From NCBI GenBank assembly GCA_963920765.1, contig OY987243.1:34843060-34907059 (forward strand): a stretch of DNA of 64,000 bases, written 5' to 3'. The notes under the pieces are model-generated. The model ran no database searches, had not been told where the DNA came from, and was given only the letters and a program-made list of their open reading frames with translations. The stretch is from Ulota crispa (taxonomy: Eukaryota > Streptophyta > Bryopsida > Orthotrichales > Orthotrichaceae). Position 1 is the stretch's first letter; each line of letters starts with the position of its first letter. Below, one piece after another: positions 718 through 58,984 of the stretch. The translations under genes and the position numbers were made by a program.

Positions 718-3700
718 CTACCTACCAATGTGCATGATGCTTAATTCAAGAGTAGCATTGCCTTTTGTAAGCGGGCCTCTATCACTTTGAGAGGTTGATG
801 ATGACAAAAGAAACAAAGGGCACTCACTCTCAGAGTCAACACTAATGCAAGTCATGTCTTGAGACAAGTCATCATTGGAGATAAGTGCTTGGACTTTAGC
901 ATCGCCTTCCAACATGGCTGCCACTCGAAACATGGTGGGACGCTTCTCAGGTGCATTTTGCACACACAACATGGCTATTTGTAGCACTTGTTGCACTTCC
1001 AACGCTTCATTGCCACTCACAAGTAGAGAAGCATCTTGTAAATCCATGAGTCTACTTTCTCTATGCAACTTCTTTGCCTACAATAATATCAAAATAAGCC
1101 AAAACTTTATTTCCTACGTAGCCCAAGTTGTGTAAGTAACACATTCATTGCATGTTAAATATTGCAAAAACAACTACATAAGGTCTAAAATAAAACATTT
1201 TGCATTCAACAAAAAGGTGGAGAATGTTGTTGTTAATGCACTTGAAGTTTACACAAACTAAACACACTATTGCTAACATGCTTCAAATTTCTCTTTTCAC
1301 CACAACTTTAAAAGTAAGCTTTTTTTCTTTAGTGAGTTTCTTCATGGGTTTTTGTTCTACCAAGAGTTAGAGAGGTTGTTGTGGTTACACTAGACCATTG
1401 TTGCATTGTGATCTCACTGACTCTATTGCATATACAAGATTCTTCTTTAACCCCTCAATGCCCGTGGAATTTTGGAGTATCACAAAATTTGCTTGAAAGT
1501 GAACAAAAAGCTAGTATTTTCATCAATCTTATCAATTTTCTTTCAAATGTAACCGTACAAATTCAAAGTAGACATGTTATAGATTGCATACAAAAAGAAA
1601 CCACAACTACTTCACTTATGGATTGAAAGATTATAATGTTTGATCATGAGGGTGTTAAAATTGTGAAAGTGATTTGAAGTCTTTCAATCCTCTTTTTGCA
1701 TCTCAAACCTAAAATTGAGGATATCAAAAAAATATGAGTATGTAAAGTACAACATGCATAACCCCAATCAATTTATGGCTTCTCAAAATCTATTCTACAA
1801 TTTGTTTAAATGAATTTTAATGCAATTTTTTCTCCAAGTTCTAGTGTACTTGAGGCTCATTTCCAAGAGCCTTCAACACTAGAAAGTGAAGATTTGCAAT
1901 GGACACCCTTGCACAAAATCTTGAATAGACAAATTATATTAATTCATTTTCAAGATCAGACTCTTGATGCTGAAACTAGATTTCAACAACAATTTAGATA
2001 TAATAATAATCACAAAAAAAATCTTGAAACAACTTTTGGCATCTCTGAACAAAATTCCGAGGGGCACAATTCGTGCCCCTCAAGCGTTGAGGGGTTAATC
2101 TAGCTTTCATTCAAAAGACATAATTTGGATGTCAAAAACAACTAATGCTTCTAGGTTGCTTCACCCATTGTAAAGTTGTTGAAAGATGATGATGCTTGGA
2201 AGGGTTGGTAGTCTTGTATAAAGGTAAGACTAGTAGAAGCTTTGCTACAATGCTTTGAACTATGTGATGCTTCACCACATGACTTATTTTCACCAATTTC
2301 TTCTCTTAGACTTTTCAAGTAGCATGTTTGCAAACCTCTTTTTCTTTTACATATGTGACACATTGCTGTGAAGCTTGCAATATACATTCTCTTGACTCTA
2401 ATAACTTTGTTGCATATAAAAAACTTACTCAATTGGATAGATACACTTCATCATCTAGCATTGTGACGTCTGCTTTTCTCTTCCCACTCACAATCTCTAG
2501 AAGCACAACACCAAAGCTGCAAACGTCTGCCTTTTCACTTAGTTTGCCATTGCATGCATATTGAGGTGCCAAATATCCCCTGCTCCAATCAAAGTTGACA
2601 ACGTTGTCAAACTAACCATGCTGCAATTTGACAAGCTACAAGATGCTAGCCAATTATTAAACTACTATGTTAATATTAAATAGGTGACATGCAACCACAA
2701 ACTAACAATTTTTAACACTAAAAGTTTTGCACTCATGATGCTCATACCAAACACACAAGCTCTACAACTTTGCTTCCAAACTCCAATCAACAACACTCAA
2801 CTTCTTTCATGTGAAACAAATCAACATGAATGCCTAGAGTCATGGATGGAAATTGTGCACACATTGTTCCTGCACATTGTTGGGTATAGATGATGCTCTT
2901 TGTGTCCATTGGCCAGGCCAATCCAAAATCAGCTATTTTTGGATCAAAGCTCTTGTCCAACAAGATGTTGCTTGCTTTGATATCTTGGTGGATGATTCGG
3001 GATTGGGATGATGCATGCAAGTAAAACAATCCTTGAGCCACACCTCAACACACCTTCATCCGTGCAAGCCACGTCATCTTCATATCCAAGTCACCAAAAC
3101 TATCACTTGCAAGATTGTGGTGACCTATGCACATAATTGTTCAACTACACAATTAGTTCTTCCATGTTAGATGATAGATATCCCCTTTGAAAGGGCATTG
3201 TGCATCCAAAGAGTGATTCCAAAATTACACACAATGTTAGCTTGGTTCCTTAGCATCATTCTTGTTATGGTAAACATGCAATTCCCTCTACATACTATTC
3301 CTTGCTAAATCTGAAAAGAAAGTTAGACTTCCAATGTTTGCAAAGCTCTTCAAAGGCAATGCTTTAAAGGACTTCATATGCATTGAACTTGAACCTTCTC
3401 TATCAATTTTTTTGCACTAAGCTCAAATAGTGCACCAACAACATCATAGACACTTGTCACTACTATCTCCATTTTGTGAGCAATTTCATATTGGTTTCAA
3501 ACTTTTAGGTGTTGCAATTCTTGCAAAGAGAATCTACAAAAAAATCATAAAATTTATGCAAGGAATACATGCCTCATTTATAGAAGTATTTTGGAAATTC
3601 TCAAATGTGGTTCATTACAACTAGAAAAGATAGTCATCAAAGTTTGAGATATGTTTTTCAATGTAGGAAAATAGTGAGGTTTCACAAGGCATATAGTGAT

Positions 3701-4971
3701 AATAAGATTGGGTGACTTACTCAAGAGCACCTTGTCTAGATCGCAATTGTCTACAAAGTCATAGATAAGAAGAGTTTGTTTGCCGTGGAGGCAATATCCT
3801 CTCAAAGTCACCAAGTTTCAATGTTGAAGGTTGGAAATGAGGAAAACCTCATTGAGGAAGCTGTCCTTGCCTTTGTTTGTTTCCAAAAACAATTGCTTTA
3901 CAGCTACCACAACATTGTTCTCCAAGATGCCCTACAAACGATAGACAATATCAATTGTTGTGAACACCTCTTTGTAAATGTTTGATTGGCTTACTTGACT
4001 AAATGTCATCATTCATGTCAATGCACTTCATAGTTTGAAAAGAGATGCATTTCTACCTTTCATTGTAAACATTATGGAACAAAACTTGAGTGTCTAGTTC
4101 AACATAGGTCATTTATTTGCAAAATTTGCCATGTGAGTTTGCTCCTGCAAAAACAAAAACTACGTACTAAAAGATAGACAAGGATGTGGTGACTATTTCA
4201 AACCCTAAAATTTTGAACAAACAAGGCCAATAAAAGTTGAGCACTTACCAATTATCTCTAGATTTGGACAACTATAAAGTTGCATACCAAAAATTACATA
4301 TGTTTTGGCACCTATTTGTCAATATGGACAAAGCACGGCCACCTTTGCATCTAATGGAGAGTAAAATATTGTTTGGAAAGCTCTAAGGAAGATTCCATCA
4401 ATTTTGAAGTGAAGAAGAAACCATGCCTTGCCCTCTTCATAAATTAAAACCTGATCTAACATTTACCTTTGTTGGCTATGAGCTTCCAAAATAGACTATC
4501 CACTAATTAGGAGCCCACTTGTGTATTGGAGGGATAGCACCCAGGATCTCAATATTGCAATCAAAAGTTGGCAAGACAAACGCAAATAAAGCACTCATAG
4601 CATGCAATAAATTACCTCTTGAATGGCCCATTTTCAAAATTAGTCAATTGCACCCACTTTGATTACACCTAGTTAGTCATCCTACAATTTCTTTCATCCA
4701 ACCAAGTCTCACACTCTCCACAACCTTCTCAAGCATGTAGGCAACCTAAAAATTAAGCTTTAGAGAGGTAGAATCTCACTCAAAGTTCTTACACATCAAT
4801 CACCACACTATCTTTATAAAAAAGTATTTCAAGACAAAGTTGGGAATCTGACCTTGTACACAGCACCAAAAGCCCTTGCACCCAATTTCATCTCAAGAGC
4901 AAAGTTTCTAGTGGCCACCCGAAGCTGGTTGTATTCAAATCGTTTGGCACAAACATCAGCTTGTTTGATTA
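718..4971 (-). pseudogene. receptor-like Ser/Thr kinase pseudogene (kinase domain only)
   Basis: Five exons of a plant receptor-like kinase read on the minus strand: 4853-4971, 3721-3931, 2863-3106, 2429-2579 and 718-1077. They resemble the cysteine-rich or LRR-VIII RLK type. Visible motifs are FEYNQLRVATRNF, a drifted glycine loop (GARAFGAV), VAVK with the beta-3 lysine, HQDIKASN (HRD altered to HQD), DFG, YLAPQY (APE altered to APQ), [12 protein letters not shown] and a C-lobe ending RPTMFRVAAML. Exon phases fit, but three in-frame stops break it: TGA at 3818-3820 (after NLQH), TGA at 3045-3047 (after RMKVC) and TGA at 2429-2431, where a tryptophan is usual. The acceptor before 3106 reads CAA rather than CAG. 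No signal peptide, extracellular domain or membrane segment was found upstream; a piggyBac relic lies there instead. A working kinase is unlikely. Confidence 0.8.
1451..2094. mobile_element. TTAA-flanked piggyBac-type MITE, 644 bp
   Basis: TTAA stands at 1447-1450 and again at 2095-2098. The left terminus reads CCCCTCAATGCCCG; the complement of the right terminus reads CCCCTCAACGCTTG. A GC-rich subterminal palindrome (GAGGGGCAC..GTGCCCCTC) lies near the right end. The interior from about 1575 to 1990 is similar to 18425-18800, so it belongs to a dispersed family. It has no transposase and lies inside an intron of the kinase pseudogene. TTAA duplication with CCC-starting termini is the piggyBac signature; assignment is by that signature only. 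Confidence 0.75.
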
Positions 4972-5191
4972 CTGCAAGGAACCAAGGCATCAAGAGAGAA
5001 TTACTTGTTTCTCTTGTAGCATGACAATTTCTTCTATTTGCAAAAATGAAGCAGTGTCATGCTACATGGAGAGTGAACATTTGATTTGAGTAATGGACTT
5101 CACATTTTGCAAAGTTAAAGAAGCAATTCACAATGTGTTTCATGTCTGAACTTTACAAGTCCCAACTCAACTCCACATCTGAACTTTCTAA

Positions 5192-6142
5192 ATGGGGAAT
5201 AAATCACTAAGTAAAACCTTGAACACTATACAAGTGATAGTTACTCACCTTGTTTCAAACATTATTGTGTACTTGGAGGCAAATGAAGCGTGCTTGGAGG
5301 GCGACTCGGTGGGTGAATCTGTAGTTCTCATTGCAATAGTTGGCTTGGAAGCCCGAGGCCATGTCATTATAGCAGACAACTTCTTCACATCTCCGCGACT
5401 ATTTCTGGAACTTTTGAAGCGGGGTTTTTGGGCAATAGGGACATGCAAGAAGAATTGGCATGGATTTCCAGCGAGTTTGGCCGGGTTTCCAAACACCCAC
5501 TTGCCCAATAGAGGACACCTAGTGATCAAGATGCATCGCAGCGATTGTCTAGCTGCTATTTGTTGGATGGATGCAAAGCCAGTCTTCCTTCTGTCCACCA
5601 CGTGTGATCTAGTTGGTGAGGATTGTTTTGTAGGGCGTTGGGTGGGCCGTGAACGAGTGCAGTTCCCTACCTCTCTTATTTTATTGCAGTACGAGGCTAG
5701 GATGAGAGGTGTGGATGTCGTCGATCAACAACAACAGGAGTATACTACCTAGCTGCACTCCCAGAACTGGTGGCATTGGCTGTTCATATTCATATTAGAT
5801 TCACAGTTATTGAATTTTTACATACTGTATGTCATAGATTGTAGTGCTACAAGCCTTCCAATCCAGCCACGGAACCATTAGCACTATGATGTAGCTAAAG
5901 ACGTCATCAAACATCAGATGAAGGTTGGCTGTTTCTAGGGACCCATTCGTAACTTGGCCAAGGGAGGTGTACATTACAGCATTAGCCACCTAAATAAGCG
6001 TCAAAACTGCGTCGTTTGCGGCAATAGGACCAAGCGGATGTGTCCTGGGTGTTGTGGCCAATTCCAGTGTGAGGGGGCGTGCTATCTGGCCACGCATACA
6101 CAACAGGGTTATGAGGCAAACATGCAAGCACAAAGAGTGTAG
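5192..6142 (+). pseudogene. piggyBac transposase relic (DDE_Tnp_1_7) with C-terminal cysteine-rich domain
   Basis: One reading frame from 5192 to 6142 matches the central and C-terminal parts of piggyBac-derived transposases. ARGHVIIADNFFTSPRLF carries the second catalytic Asp. YEARMRGVDVVDQ carries the third. WWHWLFIFILD follows, and then the terminal zinc-binding domain (CVVCGNRTKRMCPGC..CEGACYLATH) that piggyBac proteins use to bind their ends. Similarity starts at about 5260; the N-terminal domain and first catalytic Asp are missing. In-frame stops lie at 5750-5752, 5879-5881 and 5936-5938; no frameshift is needed. The first replaces an expected residue just after QEYTT and would fit CAG to TAG. 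The product would be inactive. It lies just upstream of the kinase pseudogene on the opposite strand. PiggyBac transposases are uncommon in land plants, so this copy explains why TTAA-type MITEs occur here. Confidence 0.88.
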
Positions 6143-6255
6143 CTCGCCTTTGTGCTTTGAGATTGTAGGGTGATGTTGCATGGTGGCTCCTCAGGTTGTA
6201 GTTGCTATTGAGGATACCTATAGTATATGCCTCAAAACCAATTCACAATCTTTGA

Positions 6256-6324
6256 CAACGGCACCGTCATGGAACAACGGCACCGTCATGGAACAACGGC
6301 ACCGTCATGGAACAACGGCACCCT
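6256..6324. repeat. 19-bp tandem repeat, about 3.6 copies
   Basis: The unit CAACGGCACCGTCATGGAA is repeated almost without change, with the last partial copy reading CACCCTCGTG. It lies just downstream of the piggyBac relic's C-terminal domain. Subterminal tandem repeats are common in DNA transposons, but this may also be an unrelated minisatellite. Confidence 0.85.
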
Positions 6325-6869
6325 CGTGAGTTTCATAGACTATTAGGAACTATGTACCGTCTATGGATAGGATTGCATTCGTAGATTTCTCCTACAACCT
6401 TTATGTTTTCAATTCCCCTTTACTCTACAATATCATATGCAAGTTTTTGTTGCCAAGCATGTGTTTGAGAGTTTGTATTCTACTTTGTGAATGCCATGGT
6501 CAAGTTCATGAAGCAAGCAGTTACTGGAGTCCTGGGCTCCAGAAGAGTCACCAACATGAGTCCCTTGAGAGCTTTTTGCCCTGCGTAAACCAACTCCCCC
6601 TCCTATTGCTAGCTCAGCCGCTGGCACACCAAAATCAAGAATCTGGAAGCCAATAGGGTCGCCACAACTAGCCATAGATAAGGAACAGCCGGCCTCATCT
6701 CCGAGCGGCCCAGTGCTGCTTGCATACGACAGGGATACTAAGAATTGACGACACCGTGCTTTGGCATTCAAGCCCAAAAAAATTACTGTAATTGAAGAGC
6801 TAAATTTGCAAGCCTCCCACCAGAGCAATTGATGATCTACCCTTTGCCGGAATTACTAAAACTTGAAAA

Positions 6870-6919
6870 CCTCAAATACGGTCCCGTATCCAGAAGCCCG
6901 AGGGCCTTTCAAGGGTTAA
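6870..6919. mobile_element. right terminus of a TTAA-flanked element (CCCTTGAAAGG type)
   Basis: Read on the minus strand from the TTAA at 6916-6919, the sequence is CCCTTGAAAGGCCCTCGGG followed by a small palindrome (TACGG..CCGTA). The same terminal type borders the complete element at 22856-23080 (CCCTTGAACGCC..). This could be the right end of the element that carried the piggyBac relic at 5192-6142. No matching left end was found, so that link is inference. Confidence 0.5.
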
Positions 6920-7456
6920 CCCCTAAAGGACCAACTGTCCCCTCGAGGGACAAATGGATTTCGGGCATGTACCTACAACTAATCTACTTTCTGTGATTTT
7001 TTAAAACTTTTATTGAAAGTGTGGAATTCAAATATCTACGTGGACATCTAATTTTTTCTTCATTCTAACATTTATTGAAGAAGTTAAAAATGAATTTCCA
7101 AAAACGGGCAAGATTGGGCAGCCCAAAAACTTCTTTAAAAATTTCATTAAAAACAAATAAAAATATGGAATAGGTTCTTTAGACTTATATATACATAGGG
7201 ATCTTTGAATCACTCAATTTTGATTGATGAGATGAAAGTTATGAGAAGTTTTTGTTTGTAAGTAGGTGTGGTTTCTCTCAAAACCACACCTGCCCGTAAA
7301 CAAAAACTTCTCATAACTTTCATCTCATCAATCAAAATTGAGTGATTCAAAGCTCCCTATGTATATATAAGTCTAAAGAACCTATTCCATATTTTTATTT
7401 ATTTTTAATGCAATTTTTAAAGAAGTTTTTGGGCTGCCCAATCTCACCTGTTTTCC
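6920..7456. mobile_element. TTAA-flanked MITE relative with internal foldback, no clear right end
   Basis: From the same TTAA (6916-6919) a left terminus CCCCTAAAGGACCAACTG runs rightwards. It matches the termini of the complete elements at 18923-19840 and 40388-41299. Interior phrases are shared with those copies, for example TTTGAATCACTC and GAAAGTTATGAG. From about 7095 the sequence folds back on itself to 7456. The expected right terminus with TTAA was not seen, so the copy looks rearranged or truncated. Confidence 0.6.
7095..7456. repeat. long inverted repeat (arms about 170 bp)
   Basis: The left arm (about 7095-7272) and right arm (about 7290-7456) are near-perfect complements. Examples are GGGCAGCCCAAAAACTTC at 7117 against GAAGTTTTTGGGCTGCCC near 7421, and the complementary AGAAGTTTTTGTTT pair either side of a short GGTGTGGTTT centre. 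Transcription across it would give a long hairpin RNA. Confidence 0.88.
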
Positions 7457-8994
7457 TCAATTGTGGAGCAATAAGAAAGCTAATAGCTCAATGACAAATT
7501 GGATTGGTTCATAGCACTCACTGCCATTATCGTTTGTAACTAGCCAATCGCACAAATTGAAACATGTGACAATTTATCATGTCAGGACAAGAAATGGCTA
7601 TCTGATAGCCATTATGCACCACAAAAAGAATGTCTCTTTTATGATTATGGTTGATGATGGGTCACTTGCAGCAATCCAAGCAAGTCATGTTGTCAAAATT
7701 TGTGCTGTTGCCCGTTACAGATCGTCTCACAAGAGAAGGGTGTGCATAACCCTGTGTTGTGGTTTTATTCAACACATGAAATTGGTTCTTTCATATGAAG
7801 CCACTATTGCTTTTCACACGTCTCATAGAAGTTCTTCCTGAAAATGTGTGCAAGTTCACCAGTTAGAAAGTGATGATCACTAGGTGCTACTACATACAAA
7901 GAGGCTCCAAAGGACTGGTGCGGATAAAACATTACTTGCAGATGCATGATTTAAATTGTCGGCCGTTTTTTAGATCAATCTTCCCTTCCTCGAGCTGCTG
8001 CCCACCTGCTCTCATTTTACAAACAAATTTACAATCACTTTTAGATGCCGATTCCTTTTTTCTTGAATTTTATACATAACCTTCAGGCTCAGGCTTCAGT
8101 GGGCACTGACGGTATTCTCCTCTAAATGATCATTCAAAGACTGGAAGTGGTGACATGCACCTCACCTTATCTGGCCTCGCAGTGGCTCCATTGTCCACTG
8201 TATAGCCACCGGTGACTCTGAAGGATGGAAGATGATTCTTAGTCAGGACTGACTTGTTGCAGTTTCACTGCATTACCACTGGCCCTCCTGCAAAATATTT
8301 CGTGCCTCCACAGCACCTCCCTGTTCTAACTTCCAAAAATATATCTGATTATTAGCTACTAAAGATATAGTGTCTTGTCCCGCTCAGTTTTAGTCAAAGA
8401 ATACATTGAAGCAGCTCATAACTAGCCTCTGCAATCATACGGAAGATAAAGACTTCTCATTAACACCGTGGTTCACCATATTTGGTGTAATCCTTGTCAA
8501 ACCAATGGATTGAAACTGTGACAGTCACTATACAATGGCGAGTGCGTCTAGTAAATGTGAGAATGCTATTGAGAAGCACTGCAAATCAAGCAAATAAGTC
8601 GTCTATCTACTCCAGAACGTGAGAATTGACTAATTCTCGGGATTCTCTTCGTAAGTTGCACCGTGAAACCCTCCTGTTTATCCGAACTAAGACGAAGAAA
8701 ATCGATGTTGGTAAATACCTGATTTTATGACGCACGACCAATTCAGAAACACTTGCACTCAGCTTTCCATAACTTGACAACGGTGGCTTCCTGAAAGGGC
8801 CACCTGTTCTGCATTGTCAAAGCCAAAACAGCTATACTTTACCATCATCGCTTCCAATAGCGGAAAACAAAACACATCCAAAGGAAATACAGTGAAAAGA
8901 TTCACTAGCACACAAGTGCGGTACCATTTGAACACATTGATAGCTAAATTCCCCACAATGCAGTGGGGAGTCGTCTCCAAAGTCTCCAAAGACT

Positions 8995-11900
8995 TCAATG
9001 CAGCTCAGGCTGATTCTCTGGATTGTATACACTGAACTCGCCAAATTCTCGACGCCCACTGCCAGCACACCAAAGCATTGACTTAGTTACGTTTTCTCAT
9101 GAACCAAGTATAGGAGCGCCCTTAGAAGCATCTCAAAAGGCAAGAATCTACATAAGAGGACAATCTTTGAAGAGACATAAGAGGTGCATGCAGACCTATG
9201 AGTCACGTCCCATCCAGGTGGAAGAAATGCCGGTTGCAAAGCATCCACAAACACTGCCCTCCACAATTGACAAAACTGACGAATGCCTTCATCTCCTTCC
9301 TTCTCCATGATCATATCCACCACCTGCTTACCATGAGGACCGTGGCCAAGAAGAGATTCCTTGTTGATCGACCTCCTGGAATGCCTGCGTGCACTTGGTT
9401 CAGCGGCAACAGTTGCTGATTGTTTGGAATCCTCATCACTACCTAAAACGTCCGCATTTTGGTTATCGTACGGTACGTTGTTATTCTCTGTCTTGTCACA
9501 GTCAGATTTCTCTGCCTGGTCCACCTCAGAGGGCAGAGGGGGTGTATACGGACCCTCTACTTTACTTGGGATACAAGGCTTAGGATCCGAGATAATGTCG
9601 CCATCTGATGTCTGTAAGATGCACTGTGCTGAGTTTACAGTTAGTTCAGCATCAGTAACATTGAGGCCTTGGTTCTCACTGCTAGGAATGCTGGAACGTT
9701 GTTGTCTCAGGAATCTCTTCTTCATCAAACGGCGATGCTCTCGTGGTCCCATTCCAACTATAAGAGCCGCTTTCAAATCCTTTGGGGTGATATCCCTGCC
9801 TCCATAATACGTCCTTAGAACCTGCAGAAGCACAAAAGCCTCAAAAAATTAGGCCGCTTCATTTCCAAATGTGGCTTTGCAGCACGGTTTCGCTGATGGC
9901 TGGCACATATTTTACTTGCAAGAACATGAAAGTCCACGTGAAACACTACCTCCTCCAGTTGCTTTCGGCGTTCAACGGGCATTGTTGGCCCGTGACGAGT
10001 GAGAGCCATGGCAGCCGTTCGAAGCTGCAATGGCGAGACACCGCCTGATTCTCCTTCCGCCACAAAGGACACTTCGTTTTCATCCGTAGCTTCGTTGTTA
10101 CCGGAATCCACCACCCGATGGGCAAAGAGAGGAACCCCAAACTGAACCACAATTTCACGCTTGTGTTTCTCGGCAGCCTTGTGCGCAACTTCGTGGCAGT
10201 CCACACAAAGAAGCACTATGTCATGTGACCGGTGGCTCTTGAGATGCTCTGGAAAATGCTGACGATAACATGAAGGAATGATCCGGTATCGCAGGTAGTG
10301 ACTGCTCTCCCCACAACCAACACAACAGTTGCTTTTGCGCGATATGTAAAACTCGTTGTTCTCGTCTTCAGGTCGCCCTTTTGGTTCGAACAGCAACCGT
10401 ATGGCTGGAGGTTCCTCCTTCATGTCCTCTGCCAAACCCCGTTTTATGTACCTAAAACAAAACATAACACTGCGGTCATGAATCTAACCTTCTTACCCAA
10501 TACCAAACCTGAACAAGGATACTTAGATATATGGGAGAGTCATGTTCAATTCAACTCACCATTCGAGTTTTTTGCGGTCACAGAAGCAGAGAAGACGGCC
10601 ATCACCTGCGTATATACGACAATTATGATAAACAGGTGCTTTGCAAGAAAACTTCTTCACAAACTGCAAACGCGCCTGCTCAGCGTTGCCAAGACGCCAT
10701 TTCTTGGGAATAGTTCTGCGCATCCAACTCTCCTCTCCTCTGGCTTTGCTAGATTTCTCATCCTTGCTAGTGATGAAGACTTTAGCGTTTGAGCTTGTCT
10801 TATTAGCGCATAAAATCCACGTGGAAGGAATGCTGAGCATACCGAGGATTCTCCCATAAAGAGAATCAGCGGAGTTGCTTACAATATTTGTGCTGGACCT
10901 CCAAGGCCACACATCATCCTTTGAATCTTGGGCAACGTCCCACAGTATATCACAAAGAATTGCAACATAATGCTGCACAACCGGAGATGGCGATGGTAAG
11001 GGATGCAATCCTGGCACTACCGTCTCTGATGCTCGTGACGATTCATCTGCAGCCCTAATTGTACTGAAAATGGATTCTTCAGTGAGAGGTCTCTCTTTGG
11101 CCAATGCAAGCACAGCTGTGTCTGATATCACAAAACGCAAACTCTCGTCTTCTGCACGTGCCTGCAAACACGCAAGCTCCACGCTCAATGACAACACAGG
11201 ATTTCAATGAAAGATTTTAGTTAACTTAGCTGAAGGTAAAAAAAAGAACCAAAATCATGGAATGATGCTCACCATTGCATCCCTGCATTCAACAAGTCTC
11301 TGAACCAACCTCCGCAAAAAGGCATCCTCCTGTACAACAACGCCCAATAAATTACTGTAGGGGGTTTCCACACACTTCGGAAGGTATGAATGATAAACAG
11401 GCCATGACCAGCGTCAATCACATTTTGCATCGAACAGGAATATACTCCCAACCTCATTTCGGATTGCAGAACTTGAGTTATTATACAATCGACCAAATAT
11501 TGATGCCACCGTTGTAGATGAGGAGACCCCAGCTCCTTCTTTCTCATAGACTTGCAAACAAACTGCGCTTGAACGACGAAAGACCTCCAATAAAAGCTCG
11601 TTGTCATTGCATATTCCAGCATTGCCAATCTTTGCTGCAAATGACAAACATGAAATTTAGAATACACGTTAACAAATTGTTCTCTCAACACATTTTATCT
11701 ACTTTTTCTGTAACTTGGTGCAACCACATCGACCAAGTGATTGTAATTGTAGGTACTATTCAAGATGCTAAGATGTTCATGACAGTAGATTCTGATGAAC
11801 ACTCGTCGACAATTTGAGGCAAAATGCTCTACACCAAAGAACATTTCATAAATTTACAAGGTAACAAAAAGAACCACACAAATAGCAAAAATGAAATGGT

Positions 11901-18800: not shown

Positions 18801-18922
18801 GACTCTAAAAAGAGCTTTCCATATTGCAAGCTTGCGTCCAAGACCAAAACCAAAGCTGCAAAGTTTGGGCCCCAAAGTCATGAAGTCTAGGTTCATAGTT
18901 CTTTTGCTTTTAGTGAACTTAA

Positions 18923-19840
18923 CCCCTAAAGGACTAAGCCTCCCTTTTTTAGCAACATATTGATTTTGAGCAGATACTTGTGATTGGAGTTTTTTGTATT
19001 TTCAGTTTAAATTTTAAGAGAATGTGGGAACAAAGTTTATCTTTCATACGCATTAAATTTCATGACATTTGGAATCATGAGTAAAATGCTATGATCTCAT
19101 ATGTTTTTTTTGAGGGCGGGCAGTCTAGGTAGATTTAAAAAAATCATTTGCTTCAAAAAAGAATTTGAAATTGGTTTAGGAGATTTATGTGAATGTGGAA
19201 AGCTTTGAATCACTCTGTTTTGATTTATGAGAATAAAGTTATGAGGAGTTTTTGTTTGGGCAGTTATGGATTCTCTACTCTAAAATATACTTTGAAGTTC
19301 TTTATTCTACTCAATTTTCAATATTTTTGAAAAAAATTAAACCCGAGGAAGTGGATTGTTTATCACAACATTTTAACCATTGGGATTTCCATTTTTCATT
19401 TCAAAAATTAAATTCTTAACAATTTAGTGTTTTGACTCATTCTCTAGTTCTTTTTATGTACTATTTTTTTCCCATGTGTTGTACAGTTCCAATTGATTTG
19501 AAAATTCTCCCACATATACCTAACTTGATATCCCACATGGAAAAATAAAAGCACAACTTTGGGTAGAGCAATTTTTTTTCATGTAAGAGTGGTCAAAGGC
19601 TTTTGAAATTTACTGGCAGTAAGGAAAGAAAACCTCTTCCCTTCACTTTTGATGTAAATATCTCCCTCCTCTCCATCTAGAATGACCTTGTTTTTTCTCA
19701 TAAGTACCTCTTCTAGTCTAAGGCAAGATCCTATGGTTGGATTTTCAAATAAATAAAATAAAACCTACCTTCTTACTCATCTCCTCAAAGTGGCAATTTT
19801 CAGTGATTTTGGGAGAAAAATGGGCTTGGTCCTTTAGGGG
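18923..19840. mobile_element. TTAA-flanked piggyBac-type MITE, 918 bp
   Basis: Perfect TTAA at 18919-18922 and 19841-19844. Left terminus CCCCTAAAGGACTAAGCC; complement of the right terminus CCCCTAAAGGACCAAGCC (17 of 18 identical). The interior has no long open frame and aligns along its length with 40388-41299, for example GAGAATGTGGGAACAA against AAGAATGTGGGGACAA. This is a complete copy of a dispersed non-autonomous family; TTAA plus CCC ends point to piggyBac-type mobilisation. Confidence 0.88.
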
Positions 19841-20108
19841 TTAAGATAAGTACTCTATTAATATGCTATCCACTATAATTAACTAGAGTTTACTTTAGTA
19901 AAGGAATTGCATGGACCAATAGTAGAGAATGACTTTTACTTAATATCCTCTCTACTTGGAATAAGATCTTTACATTACTAACCCTCTTGTTACTTTTTTC
20001 TCCTTGCATACTTTGGTTACATATATCTTTTTGTGTCTTTGTTATGTTTTCTATTCCCAACAAATTTCAAATTTCATAGCTAGAGATATCCAAGCTAGCT
20101 AGCAATAA

Positions 20109-31860: not shown

Positions 31861-32395
31861 GGGCATTTGTAATGGCACCGGGAAAAACCCTGACAACAGT
31901 CCCAGCAATCTAGTTTGATTTTTTAATAGATAGTGAATTTGACCATAATTTTTTAATGATTTGAAGGGTATTGAAAATATTATTGTGAAAACGTAATAAT
32001 ATTTGGGTTTGGACATTATCTAAATTAGATATATCCCATCAAGTGTTAGCTAACTTCCAAAAAACTTAGAGGCCCCTCCAAATCAAGCCTAAATAAGGAA
32101 ATTTTTGTAAAGGGGTTGGTAAATTGCCAACCATTTGCCAACCCCTTTACAGAAATTTCCTTATTTAGGCTTGATTTGGAGGGGCCTCTAAGTTTTTTGG
32201 AAGTTAGCTAACACTTGATGGGATATATCTAAGTTAGATAATGTCCAAACCCAAATATTATTACATTTTCACAATAATATTTTCAATACCCTTCAAATCA
32301 CTAAAAATTTATGGTCAAATTCATTGTCTATTAAAAATCAGACTAGATTGCCGAGACTGTTGGCAGGGTTTTACTTGGTACCATTACAGATGCCC
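31861..32395. mobile_element. Tourist-like foldback MITE, 535 bp, TAA duplication
   Basis: Left end GGGCATTTGTAATGGCACC pairs with right-end complement GGGCATCTGTAATGGTACC. The arms are near-perfect complements for about 250 bp each around a short loop near 32125 (AATTGCCAACCATTTGCC). TAA flanks both ends (31858-31860, 32396-32398). Its near-identical arms produce open frames on both strands that encode matching nonsense peptides, so those frames are not genes. Length, termini and duplication fit PIF/Harbinger; a transcript would form a very long hairpin. Confidence 0.85.
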
Positions 32396-40383: not shown

Positions 40384-40387
40384 TTAA

Positions 40388-41299
40388 CCCCTAAAGGACC
40401 AGATCTCCTTTTTTAAAAACATAGTGATTTTAGGCAGGTACCTGTGATTAGACATTTTCATATTTTAGGCTGAAATGTTAAAAGAATGTGGGGACAAGGT
40501 TTATCTTTCATACGCACTGAATTTCATGACATTTGGAACTATGAGTAAAAAGTTATGGCCTAATATGTTGCATTTTACGATTGTCGGGCAGCCTTGGCAG
40601 ATTTTTAAAAATCACTTTTTTCCAAAAAAAAATTCAAATTGGTTTAGGAGATTTATGTGAATGTAGGAATCTTTGAATCATTCCGTTTGGATCAACAAGA
40701 TGAAAGTTATGAGGATTTTTTTGTTTGCAGGCAATTTTGGATTCTCTACTCCAAAATAAAATTTGAAGTCCTTTATTTTACTCAATTTTTAACATTTTGG
40801 AAAAATAAGAAAACCAAAGGATGAAGATTGTTTATGAAAACAATATGATCATTGGGATTGGCATTTTTCATTTCCATAATTAAATTCTTAACAATTTAGT
40901 ATTTGAATCATTCTTTATTGCATTTTACATACTAATTTTTTTCCATATGTAATACAACTCCAAATGATTTGAAACTTTTTGGACATGTATTTTACTTAGG
41001 TGGGATAAGGAATTTAGAGAAGCACCACCCACATGGCCTTTTTTCCTTAGGAATTTCACCTTCTAAAGGGTAGCTGCCCGGTTTTTCACAAGACGTTTTT
41101 GAATATTCAAACCATTCTAACTTCCAATCCATGAGGTGGAAAACTCTAAAAAAAATTCCACATCTTCTAAAACAATTCTTTTACAAGATCCTACTGTCAC
41201 ATATGCATAAAAGTGTTTTTATTTTCAAATTTGGTTGATGCTCTAAAAATGGCAGTTTTGAAGAGTTTTTGGTGAAAACTTTGCTTGGTCCTTTTGGGG
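40388..41299. mobile_element. TTAA-flanked piggyBac-type MITE, 912 bp (second copy)
   Basis: TTAA at 40384-40387 and 41300-41303. Left terminus CCCCTAAAGGACCAGATC; right-end complement CCCCAAAAGGACCAAGCA. The interior aligns with 18923-19840 throughout, including TTTATCTTTCATACGCA and TTTGAATCATTCCGTTT. No transposase frame. Confidence 0.87.
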
Positions 41300-41431
41300 T
41301 TAACAATGACCCCAAGCACCCACAATAGGAAGAGTATAACGGAGCCAATCACCTTGTGTGTAACAATCATGAAGCAAAAGGCTGATGTCATTATTGTAGA
41401 TTAGGTATTAAGAAGAAAAAAAAACCAAGTA

Positions 41432-44850: not shown

Positions 44851-47445
44851 TAAGTGTAAAGCGGCTCTATATGCCTGTGTATCCAGTACATTACTTCGAA
44901 CCATTGTTGCAAAACATAGGGAAGACAAGACGCCAGGTGGCAGGTGCCCTGATTGACTTTTTGACGTCGCCCCACTTCAGACTCCAAATTAAATACCAAC
45001 CAGGACTCGGAGGACACTTTGAATATCCTGCAAAGTATTCATACCTCGAACCCCCTTTGGGCTTTGACCCTTTCTCGTATGAAGTGAACATACTAGTATC
45101 TGGTTCTCCGGCTTCCGAGAAGTAACTAAAGTTTACGACGCCAACAATTCACGTTTCTACAGTACCGTTATTGTACCGAAGTACCGAATCTACAAATTCT
45201 TCTATTCATCGAAGTTTTAAGTTGACAAGCCGTACTGCTGTAGGTTGTCGCAGAAGAATCGAATCAGGAAGGTCGGATTCGCATTACTGTATATCTTTGT
45301 TGACTTCCTCACAGGGTTCCTGACTTTTTACTTCAGTTGCTTCGTAAGCAGGGTTTTTTTTCTTTTTTTTCCCCATTTTACGAGGGTAGAGCGACCCGCA
45401 CCCAGCCACCCACCAATGCAAGCAGGTAAGGAAAAATAGACAAAATTGGATAGAACCGTCAACATGTGGATTTTCATCCATAAATTGTATTAATGTCAGT
45501 AAAATTCATTCAAAATCTGGCAAATTTAGTGTTGGCTTGGGGGAGGATTTGGTGATTTCATCCATTTTTTTAATGAAGTTTTTTAGTGTTACAGTAGCTA
45601 GTGGCCATCTAAGGTAAGATTTTGGAGAATTTTTGCCAAAAAAACAGAACCTTGTTAGTAAGTGGCGTATGCTGGGAGTCTGGGACGTGGCAAAGCTGGA
45701 CCGTGCTTCACAAGAAATTTTGGAGGCGTTAGCCGGGGCTAATCCTTCAAAGGTTTACCCCCACTCTAGCCCCCTCTTACACAACACTTGGAAAATCTTG
45801 GGTGAACATTGTACACTGAGTTTAGCCTCAAAAAATGTTCATCTTGCTTATGCTAAAGTGCATTAGCCAAGGCTAATCCTTTGAGGGTTAGCCCCAAACA
45901 AACTTTAGCCCTTAGAGCTAACGCCATGAGATCTCCATGTGCCAGTGTCGCATTGCACAGTCAAATGTTTGTATTTGAGAAAACTGTGACTTTCAAATGT
46001 CATGCGCTTCAGAAACTAGGACTGGTGTAGATTTGCGGCAACACAAAATTTGCCAATTTATCAAATACTCCCTTGGTCCCTCTAAAAAGCTCCAAATTAT
46101 ACACATTCCTTAAACCACCAAAAAAACAACTCCCTTTTGCTAACTTCAAATGTTGAGAAAGCGTTTGTCATGTTCAATGATCACATGGGGTGATGGAGGC
46201 AAGTTAAGCAATTAGAGAGCATTCCTCTCCTACCAAGCTTGGCTTTGCCCATATGAGGTACCATTATTGCACTACTAACCTATAAATCATGGAGAAATTA
46301 CTAAATGAGTAACAAAAACAAAGAAATTACAATTTGGATAACAATTTGAAAATAATTACAATTTGGATAACAAAATTCAATAACCACAATGAGTTGTGCA
46401 ACTGTCAAGGGTGCAAGTTGTAAGTGCCGTTGAAGCTAGCATTGACGCCATCACTAGGGTGATTACAAGAAACACTTTTACTATTTCTTGTCCCCTTCAC
46501 CTCCTGCAGGTGCTTTTTGGCTCGTAACTTTTGCACAGCACGTTCTTTTGAGCTGAAATTTTAGAGGAAGGTACATGTCATAGTTACAGACCTTCTCTAA
46601 TTTTTTCAGTTTTTTTAAAATTATTTTACTATTTTTGAACAGCTCCCAAATAGGTGTCTACTTTGGCCATTTTGAGGATTTTTAGTACTATTTTGGGTCT
46701 AGAAAAGCTTTTCTAGGGTTATAAATCAAAGGTGTTGTTTATGGAGCATGCTTACACGCGTTTTTAGAAGGGTTTTGCAAAATTATAAATTCCATGGCAT
46801 CTACATTGTCTCAAAGTGGGCATCCTATCTCCCTTCATTGGCAAAATACAAAAAAATTCTTCAGCAAAGCAATTGTACTATGTGAATGTGTTTAATGGGT
46901 TTTCAAATGGCCAATTTTTATTTTATTTTTTTGAATTATTTACTATTTTCTAAAAAGCAAGAAAGAAATTGGCTTTTTGTAGGTGATTTTGTTTTGCACA
47001 TAACTTTTAGAACAAACTTTTTCTAGGTTTGAATTTTCACAAATATGCTATTTTAAGTGCTTTACAAATTGTCCATATTTTATTTTATTTTTTAAAAAAT
47101 TATTCCAAAAGCTCAGTAGTACTACTAGTACTACCAGTACTAAGGGTGTTTGAGACAAAACTGTGAAGTGTTTCTTGCAACTACCCACCGGTTGTTTGCT
47201 GCAACCCTTGTTTTCTCTGTGGCTTGTTCTATCAGTGGTGCAACCCTTACTAGCACCAAGCAGCCAAAGTTTACCAAACAATTATAGATTGCACAATGCC
47301 ATTGAAAAATCGCTTGCCATTTGCTTGCTTTGAAGCTTCAACGCTCATTGTTTGCTTCTCACTTGCAAACGCCAATCTCCCATCATCTTCTATTCTTTTT
47401 GCTTGCGATCGTTTGTAAGTATCGTTATCTACTATTTGCTCTCAA

Positions 47446-47699
47446 CACCATATTGTTTAAATTGGGAAAAGCAGGGGTACCATTTTGTATTCCACCTTAA
47501 ACCCAAAAAGTTACCTTAAACCAGATTTGAAGGCATTAGATTTAGTCTGAGCCACTAAGATTTTTTCCCTTGCAATTCCTCCTCTCAAGTGAGGGCACCT
47601 GTACCAAAAAAAAACTCTGCAAGTTAGGTTTTAGGTGACCACCTAAAACTTTTGAAAGTCCCAAAATGTACTATTTTTCCCAATTTAACAAATATGGTG
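47446..47699. mobile_element. palindromic MITE of the ATTGGGAAA family
   Basis: CACCATATTGTTTAAATTGGG at the left pairs with CCCAATTTAACAAATATGGTG at the right. Inside lies a smaller palindrome (TTTTAGGTGACCACCTAAAA). Shares ends and inner palindrome with 55332-55571, and ends with 54485-54746 and 58573-58830. No clear target duplication. Confidence 0.72.
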
Positions 47700-48205
47700 T
47701 TTCTCTCTTCCGGTTGTTTAAAGGTGTAAATTGTTTACAACTTGGAACTTGTTCAACCACCAATTGCATGTTGTTTCTAACTCAATCTTGCACGCCATCT
47801 CTTGCTATGCTCTAGCATGGAACTAGGACAACACTTACAGCTTGTGCCCTTGACAGTTGCACAATCCATTGAGGTTATTGGATTTTGTTACCCAAATTGT
47901 AATTCTTTTCAAATCATTACCCAAATTGTAATTTCTTTCCTTTTTGTTACTCATATTTTAATTCCCCATAAATCATCAATAATAATGACCTGGTAACATG
48001 CACAAATATGGTACTTTTTTTTCATGAAATTTAGGTGCCTATACGGCGACATCAAATTTGAAGATTTTATATACATTTGGTAGATGATATGTTAATTTCT
48101 AGAATGCATGTGTAACTAGCACAAAGATTAAAAACATAACACAATCATTCCATCACAAAGAAGCTTTTTGGATGTTTTAAGAGGGACAGAGGTAAAAGGG
48201 AGCAA

Positions 48206-56189: not shown

Positions 56190-58984
56190 AGAGCCCATTA
56201 GTTCAAAACCTCACTGTCAAGTATGCTTAAGAGTGTGAGACGCTCCGTAGCACTAGCATTATCTTGTGGCCAACGAGGACAGCGCAGGTCAACCAAGGCA
56301 CACTCCTACAAATAAATCAAGTTTCATTTTTTTTAATTCGATGTTCTATGAGTGGAAGTGACAAGAATGAGCGTGAAGGGATGACCTTGACGTAGCTCCT
56401 ACGTATTATGCTGAAAACATTTAAGATAACATGGTTTGAAGCTATTTCTTTGGAGTGGATTGGACACTTTCTATGTATCATAATGTGTCAGAAATGCAAC
56501 AGATTCCAGGTTTAAGCCCTTTGCTTTTGCCTATGCAGCCCTTATGAACACTCGAGCTTACTGTCCTTGTTTACTATGTTCACCACTTACAATGAAAAAG
56601 TTGAAATACCGGAATCACCGGCTCTTCTTGAATTGAACTGCAACAGCAAAAAAATTAGGGTGTGAGCCCACCTCGAGGCCTTCGTCATCCTCCAAGAAAC
56701 TAAATGGCTGTTCTTGTGGCTGCTCTGTCATCTCTCATGTTCCCAAAGGATTTCAAGATCTGGTATCAAGGAATAACGTCCAGAGTCCTATGTCAACCTA
56801 AATAATAAAGTCTAAACTTTAATTCGATCCTCATTAAGGATCATAGTCCGCATGGTCTCTTTAAAACATGTGAGGTACGGATGTCAAAACCACTAGGAAA
56901 TCGATCCTAAGCTTACCTCCCTTACAACAACAATAACAACAAATGTAATCACACAGTTGGATTGGCTAGATAGTAAACCGTGATGTACGAATTGCTTGAC
57001 TATATTCCTATTTTCATAGACCTTGGATGCACAAGGGGTTATCTTGATAGAGATTATGACAGATTTTTCTCTTTGTAACCAAATAGATGTCTCCACAACT
57101 CCAAAAAACCACACTTCTACATATGTTAAAATGCTTAAAGCGATGCAGATATTATAGTTTACTTTGATGTTAGACAGTTGTGGCACCCACCTGTGGAGCG
57201 AGAATTCAATGTAACGCTCCGAAGGCAGCCTAGGCAAACAAAAAAACCAACCATAAAGTGACCAGCACCGCCTGTCACTGGAGCATCGTCACAATATTGT
57301 CAGTTCCTGCAGGCCATGGTGCCCGTTCGTTCGAGACGCAAGCACGCACTGCTGGACACCAGTGTTGATGCCTCAAATAATTCAAACCCTAATTACAGAA
57401 GGTAAGCCCAGAGAGTTCATCAACTTTGCTTACCTGTACTGGACGACACCAAAGGTCGGCGACCAGAGACAATTGATGACCAAAAGCGTGTTTAAGAGAC
57501 CCTCTGGAAAGCCTTTGCAATTGTGTCACCTGCAAACCACCGAAGCATTCGTCACCACATCCACCTCGTCTGGAGAACTTGATGTCGAGCAAGAATATTC
57601 AAAAAACATAAAAACAGAACGTCTCACTCGTTCAACACCAGTCAATTAAGATTTCAGACATCAGACATCAGAAAGTCCTCGTTTCCTCATTCCATGGAGA
57701 ATTAGGGTTTGGTGCAAGACACTGTTGAAATCTCGAACTTGGGAGAAAATCATCGAAATGAATGTCAGATTAAGTACCGTCACTCTCACTACGACCACAT
57801 TATATCAGGAGTTTTGAAACAATCAAAACCACAATAAACCACGACAACTGCCACCCATGGATTGAACAAACCAAATGCACGTAAATCCTAGGGAAAATTT
57901 CATGAATACCCTTGAAGTTTGCAATATTTGCATAGATACCCCTGCTTTTTCAGAAATTGCACAAATACCCTTGGATCAAGATTTTTAAGCGTTTGTTTTG
58001 TTGTGCATGCCACTTCCCTTCTTCCATTGTGCACACGTTGCTACTTTTTTATTTCATTACATTCCCTTCTTCAACATTGGTCAACATTGGTCATGAAGGA
58101 AGTACAAGCACAACAAATAAATGCCTAAAGATTATAGTCCAAAGATATTTGTGCAATTTCTGAAAAAGCAGTGGTATCTATGCAAATATCGCAAACTTCA
58201 GGGGCATTTACGAAATTTTCCCTAAATCCTAAACCTAAAACACTAGAAACTCCCGATCATCAAGAGAAGAAAATCATGCACCTGAAGCAAGAGCAACAGT
58301 CCTTGCTGCTGCACATGATCACTGCAACGTGGCAGTTGCCATCAGATCAGGACCACAGCAATAACAGACGAAAACTTGCAATTGGTATAAGAACGAGGGA
58401 AGGATGGCAGTACTTGCTCTCTCCGAGGCTACATTCTTCTCCCGCACCATTGCAGCTTTGATTTCGGACCAGACAGAATATTCTTTAAGAAAGTCCCAGA
58501 GTCTGATCCGCATTTGGTCGAGAGTTTGTGTCAAGGTTGCAGATTCTTGCTTGCAGGCTGCGAGAGAATAAACACCATATTATATTAGGTAAATTGGGAA
58601 AAACAGTACATTCTGGGACTTTCAATTTCTGTTAAAATTTAGTATATTACAAAAAAAACACGCAGGCAATTTCTTGTACAATATTGAAATCTCATTGATT
58701 GCCTCCAAGAATTTCAAATATTTAGAACTTTGACATGTAACTATGCCTACATTTATTGTATGTATGTAAAATTACGGTGGGACACAAAAATGGTCCCTCT
58801 ATTTTTCCCAATTTACCTAATAAAGATATTTAATATCTTTCTTATATATTCTTAGTATTGTAATTCGAAATTTTGAACTGGAGGGTTACTTTGCAGCTTG
58901 AGAGTGATTAATTACCTTCCAAGAGTTCGCAGAAACCGAACGAGGAACTGGTTTTCCTGAAGGCCAACTCGGAGACGAAGACAT
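56190..58984 (-). CDS. candidate multi-exon gene, family not recognised
   Basis: Several minus-strand pieces look like exons. 58916-58984 opens with ATG (MSSSPSWPSGKPVPRSV). 58414-58549 (or from 58557) encodes a helical stretch (LDQMRIRLWDFLKEYSVW). 58282-58321 encodes a Gln/Leu-rich piece (QQGLLLLLQ). A piece ending with donor CAG|GTAAGC near 57433 encodes LQRLSRGSLKHAFGHQLSLV, possibly coiled coil. Further AG/GT-bounded pieces are near 56590-56640 and 56190-56308. GT and AG borders are present, but not all phases close: the 58414/58321 junction needs an alternative donor or acceptor. A MULE-like MITE (57891-58222) would sit in an intron. I do not recognise the family; the limits are approximate and the gene could be a relic. 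Confidence 0.35.
57891..58222. mobile_element. MULE-like foldback MITE, 332 bp, perfect 9-bp duplication
   Basis: TAAATCCTA lies immediately left (57882-57890) and right (58223-58231). The ends GGGAAAATTTC and GAAATTTTCCC pair, and arms run on for over 100 bp (AGTTTGCAATATTTGCATAG and its near-complement). A 9-bp duplication with GGGAAA ends is the Mutator-like pattern. A diverged second copy is at 61538-61863. Confidence 0.88.
58573..58830. mobile_element. palindromic MITE of the ATTGGGAAA family, about 250 bp
   Basis: ATTAGGTAAATTGGGAAAAA at the left pairs with TTTTTCCCAATTTACCTAAT at the right; the left flank also begins CACCATATT like 47446. Shares AGTACATT and GGGACTTTC with the other copies. 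Confidence 0.7.

Follow-up and report, generated by a model that had tools for sequence, protein, structure and literature searches.

The closest described counterparts of the sequence analysed in this work are found in the piggyBac superfamily of DNA transposons. For the piggyBac transposase, the roles of the residues D268, D346, D447 and D450 are described, together with a cysteine-rich (Cys-rich) domain in the C-terminal region (PMC2533014), and a dimer of this domain is reported to bind a palindromic internal repeat of the transposon end (PMC7351741). Short elements linked to piggyBac-like transposons and to TTAA (piggyBac-type MITEs) are described in corals (PMC2872659). PiggyBac is also counted among the superfamilies found in all taxonomic groups of a comparative study (PMC4438587), and the repeat table of the fern Ceratopteris richardii includes a PiggyBac line (1,230; 122,417 bp; PMC6890710), so that the superfamily is known in land plants at the level of repeat tables. 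In mosses, DNA transposons of unexpected affinity are described for Physcomitrium patens, whose Mariner-like elements are placed with fungal ones (PMC7466625); these belong to another superfamily, and piggyBac is absent from the main text of that paper. The word piggybac occurs once each in two other moss papers (PMC5253467 and PMC6137984), and only as "piggybacking" in a third (PMC10619864). Among the top-ranking papers of the open-licence literature searched, none describes a piggyBac population of a moss down to its ends, introns, Cys-rich domain and MITEs.

The locus presented here is a land-plant member of this known superfamily, read in detail. It shares with piggyBac the transposase domain, the DDD motifs (at the family level), the C-terminal Cys-rich domain, TTAA, ends starting with CCC and a palindromic repeat inside the end, and differs in its moss host, in the introns of the gene copies read (L010 and L064) and in the distance of the palindrome from the tip (about 28-41 bases, vs 17-33 in piggyBac; PMC7351741). 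In comparison with the coral MITEs, the short elements described here are from a moss and fall into several families, some of them fold-back forms about 700 bp long; in comparison with C. richardii, where a table line is given, the motifs, ends, copies and MITEs were read here. The copy under study is an ordinary dead transposon copy, which points to a large, old and varied piggyBac population in the moss; a land plant thus once harboured a busy group of transposons of which most examples come from animals. With at least 120 matches to the transposase, and a great many MITEs whose ends are similar, the superfamily is documented in detail in a land plant, and plant biologists gain endogenous TTAA elements for study.

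The window, i.e. the whole stretch of 64,000 nucleotides that was analysed, corresponds to C2:34843060-34907059 in an assembly of 274.8 Mb and 157 contigs, and lies inside a contig of 36,975,619 bases with plant-type genes (a dyskerin-type pseudouridine synthase and kinase pieces). The receptor-like kinase pieces adjoin the relic on the opposite strand; those at 4829-5056 (without a Pfam match) and 718-1068 were assigned by eye. Scanning the window for Rfam families and tRNA genes gave no match. Contig C157, by the reading of its frames, carries chlB, chlN, ycf1 and ycf2 and represents a plastid genome; rpoA is absent there between petD and rps11, the order being petD followed by rps11, infA, rps8, rpl14, rpl16 and rps3 (about 10 kb elsewhere in this contig are masked). 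Loss of the plastid rpoA is generally taken as a mark of most mosses. The order petD-rpoA-rps11 is conserved in land plants (PMC9038950), and in Physcomitrella rpoA was lost from the plastid to the nucleus (Sugiura et al. 2003, by its title as cited in PMC2841679). The host is very probably a moss. Elsewhere in the assembly (L054, C97:115001-121000), stretches resembling plastid accD and the 3' part of rbcL are embedded in other DNA with a long open frame, which suggests an organelle insertion or a chimaeric contig.

Contamination of the contig from a non-plant source had been named in the preliminary description as one finding that would overturn a plant piggyBac, and the superfamily is indeed reported mainly from animals, fungi and protists (PMC12732532). 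Nevertheless, given a 37-Mb contig with plant-type genes and a moss-like plastid contig, the derivation of the relic stretch from a contaminating fungus or animal is very unlikely, close to negligible; it is further contradicted by the presence of PF13843 matches on contigs C1-C11 and by the interleaving of the relic with high-copy elements of the moss genome.

The frame at 5192-6142 had been described from the letters alone as a piggyBac transposase relic, broken by three stops, in which two catalytic Asp motifs (the second and the third) and the terminal Cys-rich domain survive, and each of these points was borne out (Table 1). Its first 186 residues (window 5192-5749) match the Pfam profile PF13843 (DDE_Tnp_1_7) with an E-value of 3.2e-14, over profile positions 165-323 of 349, and the score of 53.4 bits, against a family cut-off of 22.4 bits, places the relic in this family; the piggyBat transposase is its sole PDB match at E<=1 (E 1.2e-4). 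The frame is open except for three in-frame stops, each of them TAG, and finishes with a terminal TAG (6140-6142). From the D268/D346/D447 triad, the second and third Asp are retained, the first one falling in a missing exon, and the Cys-rich domain follows in the same reading frame.

Table 1. Features of the window, with the GGGTTAACCC junctions of other fetched loci in the last line (positions within each locus).
Feature	Position	Strand	Basis
Receptor-like kinase exon pieces adjoining the relic	718..5056	-	Pfam kinase matches at 2787-3044 and 2429-2611
652-bp TTAA-CCC MITE between kinase exons	1447..2098	+	paired ends; repeat over whole length
Decayed last exon of piggyBac transposase gene, 5' exons missing	5251..6142	+	PF13843 match; homology start at 5250-5255
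Second catalytic Asp codon (piggyBac D346 equivalent), in IADNFFTS	5375..5377	+	alignment A2; motif numbering of PMC2533014
Third catalytic Asp codon (D447 equivalent), in MRGVDVVDQ	5714..5716	+	alignment A2; motif PxxxxxxYxxxxGGVDxxD of PMC2533014
D450 equivalent codon	5723-5725	+	alignment A2
In-frame TAG stops of relic	5750-5752, 5879-5881, 5936-5938	+	frame reading
C-terminal Cys-rich domain, C-x2-C-x7-C-x2-C-x5-C-x3-C-x4-H	6008..6097	+	spacing follows alignment A3
Subterminal palindrome, 11/12 to TACGGTACCGTA	6877..6888	+; read on - strand	scored in 18 right ends
Right terminal sequence, starting with CCC	6896..6915	-	24-mer including TTAA abundant in own genome
TTAA at right end of relic, shared with abutting MITE	6916..6919	.	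sequence reading; end pairing
Fold-back MITE starting TTAACCCC, 3'-truncated copy, begins at the relic's TTAA	6916..7455	+	genome search; matches L030-L038
Stretch bounded by paired inverted TTAA-CCC ends; repeat part from about 216 bases in	18919..19844	+	end pairing; genome search
920-base stretch with paired TTAA-CCC ends	40384..41303	+	end pairing
GGGTTAACCC junctions in other loci	L012 3286; L030 1505; L031 1579; L035 1535, 2258; L037 1983; L056 123, 4136; L058 50; L062 47		

Judged by its pattern, the Cys-rich region of the relic would be the C-terminal Cys-rich cross-brace domain of the piggyBac superfamily. The six Cys are invariant across the ten sequences aligned (alignment A3), a looser Cys/His pattern is present in the window and in 16 of 30 other copies, compared with none in the antisense strand of the same DNA (112,299 residues), and a profile of the domain ranks piggyBat 532-574 third in the PDB, weakly (E 0.15) and below two other zinc-finger proteins. 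Taken alone, the domain of the window matches nothing in Pfam at E<=1, its PDB search brings up no transposase, and none of the domains of three other copies tried exceeds a Pfam cut-off.

The extent of the relic is where the earlier reading stood only in part: the frame 5192-6142 exists, but homology begins at 5251, and the element runs on past the frame to its right end at 6915 and the adjoining TTAA. A genome search with window 5057-7000, and a BLAST of 3000-9000 against 37 fetched loci, delimit the homology to other copies to 5251-6919; in the BLAST comparison, the first 20 codons or so (5192-5250) align to none of the 37 loci, and the window from 3000 to 5250 matches no other copy. The left edge lies three bases inside an exon that follows an intron, and an AG, in L010, and L064 has the same exon start, preceded by an intron with GT and AG edges; L064 also has a middle exon bearing the first Asp, as well as an N-terminal stretch. 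The window copy therefore lacks everything before the last exon, the first Asp and the left end being gone, and its only TTAA is at the right end. The right edge of the homology is the end of the element, whose last bases read TTAA-CCCTTGAAAGGCCCTCGGGC on the minus strand; L010, 86% identical over 5251-6919 (1,671 aligned columns), ends alike at its own TTAA, with different DNA beyond. A tandem 19-bp repeat (3.6 copies, window 6255-6322) lies in the 3' part of the relic past its frame, with fewer copies in L010. We are highly confident that a piggyBac DNA transposon of a moss nuclear chromosome has left its 3' remnant at window 5251-6919, with the history proposed below.

The relic is one of many. 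The genome-wide search with the DDE_Tnp_1_7 profile, suggested in the preliminary description, yielded at least 120 matches, each over the family cut-off and the best with an E-value of 1.3e-73 (116 of 528 candidates scored), which excludes an absence of profile similarity. One of these copies, L063, matches PDB 9c0f (piggyBat) with an E-value of 5.6e-17 and PDB 6x67 (labelled Transposase, and which we take to be the piggyBac structure) with an E-value of 4e-20. In the eight-sequence alignment A2, the protein identity of seven copies to L063 amounts to no more than 32-37%, hence several old lineages coexist. Among the copies scored, the nearest copy is 86% identical for the window relic, 77% for L063 and 74% for L064, the three for which this search was made. 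All three Asp motifs are kept in other copies (e.g. L064 and L004). L063 has an open domain but an Asn at the third Asp (in piggyBac, D447N strongly impaired excision; PMC2533014), and L064 is open over two exons with a frame break before the Cys-rich domain; both open-frame copies read are thus defective, and give no proof of an active copy. The earlier suggestion of a plant piggyBac lineage once active in this genome gains support from these relatives, at least 120 in number, and from the abundance of TTAA-CCC elements; for recent activity, the three copies searched, with nearest relatives at 74-86%, gave no evidence. Some PF13843 matches occur in pairs of near-equal score and stops, in opposite orientation and 15-110 kb apart (C7:18203169/18223004, C2:36765124/36779670 and C10:676128/785346); these are probably local inverted duplications, and near-identical copies may exist.

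The same population bears on the possibility that the element was acquired by recent horizontal transfer from fungi, for which the fungal-like Mariner elements of P. patens provide a precedent among mosses. From comparisons of the moss copies among themselves, we consider this quite unlikely, because the divergence of the seven copies from L063, the intron edge common to the diverged copies L010 and L064, and the distance of the nearest relatives indicate an old and varied population and not one recent entry. Searches for relatives outside this genome gave no confirmed match, either in viral contigs (5 pattern matches with L063 and 147 with alignment A2, 0 confirmed in both cases), in phages and plasmids, or in genome contigs with the L064 exon (13 pattern matches, 0 confirmed).

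When a third copy is used for polarisation, C>T and G>A make up most of the changes accumulated in the relic. Per site, such changes are commoner at CG and CHG than at CHH: they affect 4/25 CG, 10/61 CHG and 14/240 CHH sites when L010 and L011 serve as reference, and 3/27, 13/60 and 11/228, respectively, with L012 replacing L011; L010 shows the same tendency (9/37, 7/47 and 20/243). Plants methylate transposons in CG and CHG contexts, and the spectrum fits deamination of methylated cytosine at these sites. Such decay is not what would be expected if the relic were part of a domesticated, piggyBac-derived host gene, a reading that could appeal to the 10 rows without an internal stop among the 120 PF13843 matches listed, and to L063 and L064, which, as in single-copy host genes, have no relative closer than 77% and 74%, respectively, among those scored. 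Yet the relic has three stops, no first Asp, and its own transposon end and TTAA, in addition to a decay spectrum of the kind expected for a methylated repeat, while L063 and L064 have defects of their own, in the third Asp and upstream of the Cys-rich domain, respectively, and we consequently regard domestication of the relic as highly improbable.

The right end of the transposon remnant recurs in its relatives. A TTAA-CCC right end was found in the window and, within the stretch examined, at 17 of the 28 other fetched transposase loci (L001-L008 and L010-L029), the stretch examined at the other 11 (L002-L005, L007, L008, L014, L019, L021, L022 and L025) containing none. Exact matches to TTAACCCTTGAACRRC number 569 genome-wide, vs one for the reversed pattern, and the 24-base end of the relic, searched as a slightly degenerate pattern with at most one mismatch, occurs at 750 places vs 0 for the reversed control. 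For the left end there is one candidate, at C1:1530693 (L067), which has TTAA-CCC and lacks the palindrome described below. With right ends in the window and at 17 of 28 loci, and one candidate left end, the elements appear to carry the CCC-starting terminal repeats of piggyBac. Relatives with TTAA and CCC ends, which the preliminary description proposed to look for, thus exist as far as right ends are concerned, but none of the copies was seen to be intact from one such end to the other, and the loci read include no full element in which a transposase lies between two ends. Two candidates were rejected in this search: C1:1530124, taken as the left end of the element in L025, is a MITE (the next TTAA-CCC, at 1530693, being the better candidate), and a TTAA-CCC pair 4 kb apart (C2:2670825-2674841) consists of TTAA-bounded stretches, nested in each other, that enclose a run of N and in which no transposase was seen. 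The locus around this pair (L056, C2:2670700-2675000) shows, besides the nested stretches and the run of N, two direct copies of about 1.7 kb.

Inside the right ends there is a palindrome near TACGGTACCGTA, found in 14 of the 18 ends with at least 9 of 12 letters and at position 32-34 (the first T of TTAA being position 1), and missing in the other 4. When bases 17-60 were shuffled, 0 of 1000 shuffles reached the summed palindrome score, and likewise for a palindrome score free of the motif; because the motif itself had been picked by eye in these very ends, the motif score is inflated, but the constancy of place is unaffected. Since the dimeric Cys-rich domain of piggyBac binds a palindromic internal repeat of the end, we propose, by analogy, that the subterminal palindrome is a candidate binding site of the moss Cys-rich domain.

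A further property of these elements is their poverty in internal TTAA. The relic has none between 5251 and 6916, vs 7.4 expected from dinucleotides, and the 4.5 kb around L010 have one, vs 19.1 expected; the window as a whole has 346 TTAA against a dinucleotide expectation of 529, hence this expectation overstates the effect, and composition-matched controls matter more. In the 18 element bodies with a right end (from exon match to right end, 34,972 bp, leaving out the 11 loci named above), there are 17 TTAA vs 594 occurrences of the other five tetramers with two A and two T. The corresponding counts in matched bins of the window are 44 vs 268 (GC 0.42-0.50) and 25 vs 203 (GC 0.44-0.60), which gives TTAA odds in the bodies of 0.17 and 0.23 relative to the bins (Fisher p 4e-10 and 7e-6), i.e. 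a 4-6-fold rarity, calculated from bodies that share ancestry and hence do not count as independent. TTAA is entirely absent from eight of the 18. In the 1,500 bases that precede the matches, which comprise both element and flank, the counts are 28 vs 554, in the flanks beyond the right ends they are 35 vs 235, and the MITE at 6921-7455 has 6 TTAA vs 7.8 expected. The poverty is not general, since L003, L004 and L008 hold many internal TTAA. Autointegration of piggyBac into its own TTAA is demonstrated in HeLa cells (PMC3952818, in whose main text the words depleted and underrepresented are absent), and selection against self-insertion is the explanation that we favour, with composition and the shared ancestry of the copies as possible alternatives. 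These elements offer natural material for testing whether cut-and-paste elements evolve to avoid self-insertion.

The presence of many TTAA-flanked MITEs, as stated in the earlier reading, was also substantiated: paired TTAA-CCC ends bound three stretches of the window, and another such element abuts the relic. The stretch at 1447-2098 is the only one confirmed as a full-length repeat, with 39 other full or near-full copies (1-652) at 91-93% identity among the matches listed (40 of 4,418 candidates scored), and is short, paired-ended and high in copy number, as MITEs are. For 18919-19844, 38 of the 39 other places listed start at query base 210-278 and one at 45 (40 of 8,380 candidates scored); no listed place covers the whole of it, hence the full stretch is not itself the repeated unit. 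In the fold-back MITE at the relic, the inverted arms (7101-7274 and 7281-7454) are 94% identical, its first part occurs at 20 or more places in the genome, and in L033 and L034 the start is repeated in reverse 640-720 bases on.

Six smaller MITEs, of 218-242 bp (L057-L062), were read, with both ends present and TTAA at each. Their ends, and those of the MITE in L067, were compared with the transposon ends over bases beyond the 16 shared by choice, using 20,000 shuffles. For L059-L062, the second ends agree with the right end of L010 at 15-18 of 30 bases (reached by 0-16 of the 20,000 shuffles), and the first ends agree with the candidate left end at C1:1530693 at 11-18 of 24 (0-132 shuffles, L062 being the weakest), a likeness that depends on a single candidate left end, whereas the crossed comparisons are near chance (at least 1,800 shuffles). 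Against the right end of the window itself, only L061 (15/30; 51 of 20,000) and L062 (13/30; 260 of 20,000) stand out. With two matched ends each, four of the six MITEs look like internal-deletion derivatives that keep both ends of an L010 relative; one of them, L061, has 42 other listed matches at 76-92% identity (40 of 2,085 candidates scored). It could be argued, instead, that the TTAA-CCC MITEs are unrelated to piggyBac and came to resemble it in target and CCC by convergence: L057 and L058 show no clear likeness to either transposon end in the shuffle test, the larger families (1447-2098, 18919-19844 and 6916-7455) share, by eye, only about 8-16 terminal bases with the transposase copies, and the MITE ends, taken together, do not exceed shuffled ones in palindromicity (matched by 114 of 1000 shuffles), although they do in the motif score (2 of 1000). 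Convergence would not, however, account for the two different ends of L059-L062, one resembling the L010 right end and the other the candidate left end well beyond chance, or for the half palindrome that L061 and L062 have at the same place, and we think it unlikely. Descent from piggyBac may extend to the three larger window families, to judge from their target, first bases and abundance.

Taken together, the TTAA-CCC ends, the palindrome at a fixed place and the short MITEs (218-242 bp) indicate a family that moves by cut-and-paste and has given rise to non-autonomous derivatives, for which we infer the transposition chemistry, the mobilisation of MITEs, the order of events and the role of the palindrome as follows. 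The ancestor would have had an intron-bearing transposase gene, with the N-terminal part and the first Asp in upstream exons and with a last exon that encoded the other two Asp as well as the Cys-rich domain, followed by a TTAA-CCC right end with its subterminal palindrome. As in piggyBac, the transposase, aided by the Cys-rich domain, would bind the ends, excise the element and paste it into TTAA, and short derivatives retaining the two ends only (MITEs) would have been moved to high copy number by the same enzymes. The window copy would first have lost its 5' part and afterwards have accumulated point mutations, among which C-to-T changes are enriched at CG and CHG sites, as plant DNA methylation would lead one to expect; a MITE adjoins its right-hand TTAA. 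As a broader conjecture, possible though doubtful, mosses may keep an old endogenous piggyBac population, from whose bodies TTAA was purged against suicidal self-insertion, whose Cys-rich domain and palindrome co-evolved across lineages, and whose products are the thousands of TTAA-CCC MITEs.

The meeting of two elements at one TTAA, as in the window, is found elsewhere. The junction GGGTTAACCC (window 6913-6922) is present in eight further fetched loci (L012, L030, L031, L035, L037, L056, L058 and L062), so that the end of one element is often the start of the next; the count is favoured by the choice of L030-L038 through matches to the junction region. A TTAA-CCC element that begins exactly at the terminal TTAA of another looks as if the ends were preferred landing sites. 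Further long inverted repeats, perhaps other fold-back elements, are located in the window at 31920-32337 (205-nt arms), 57889-58224 (110) and 46314-47944 (113).
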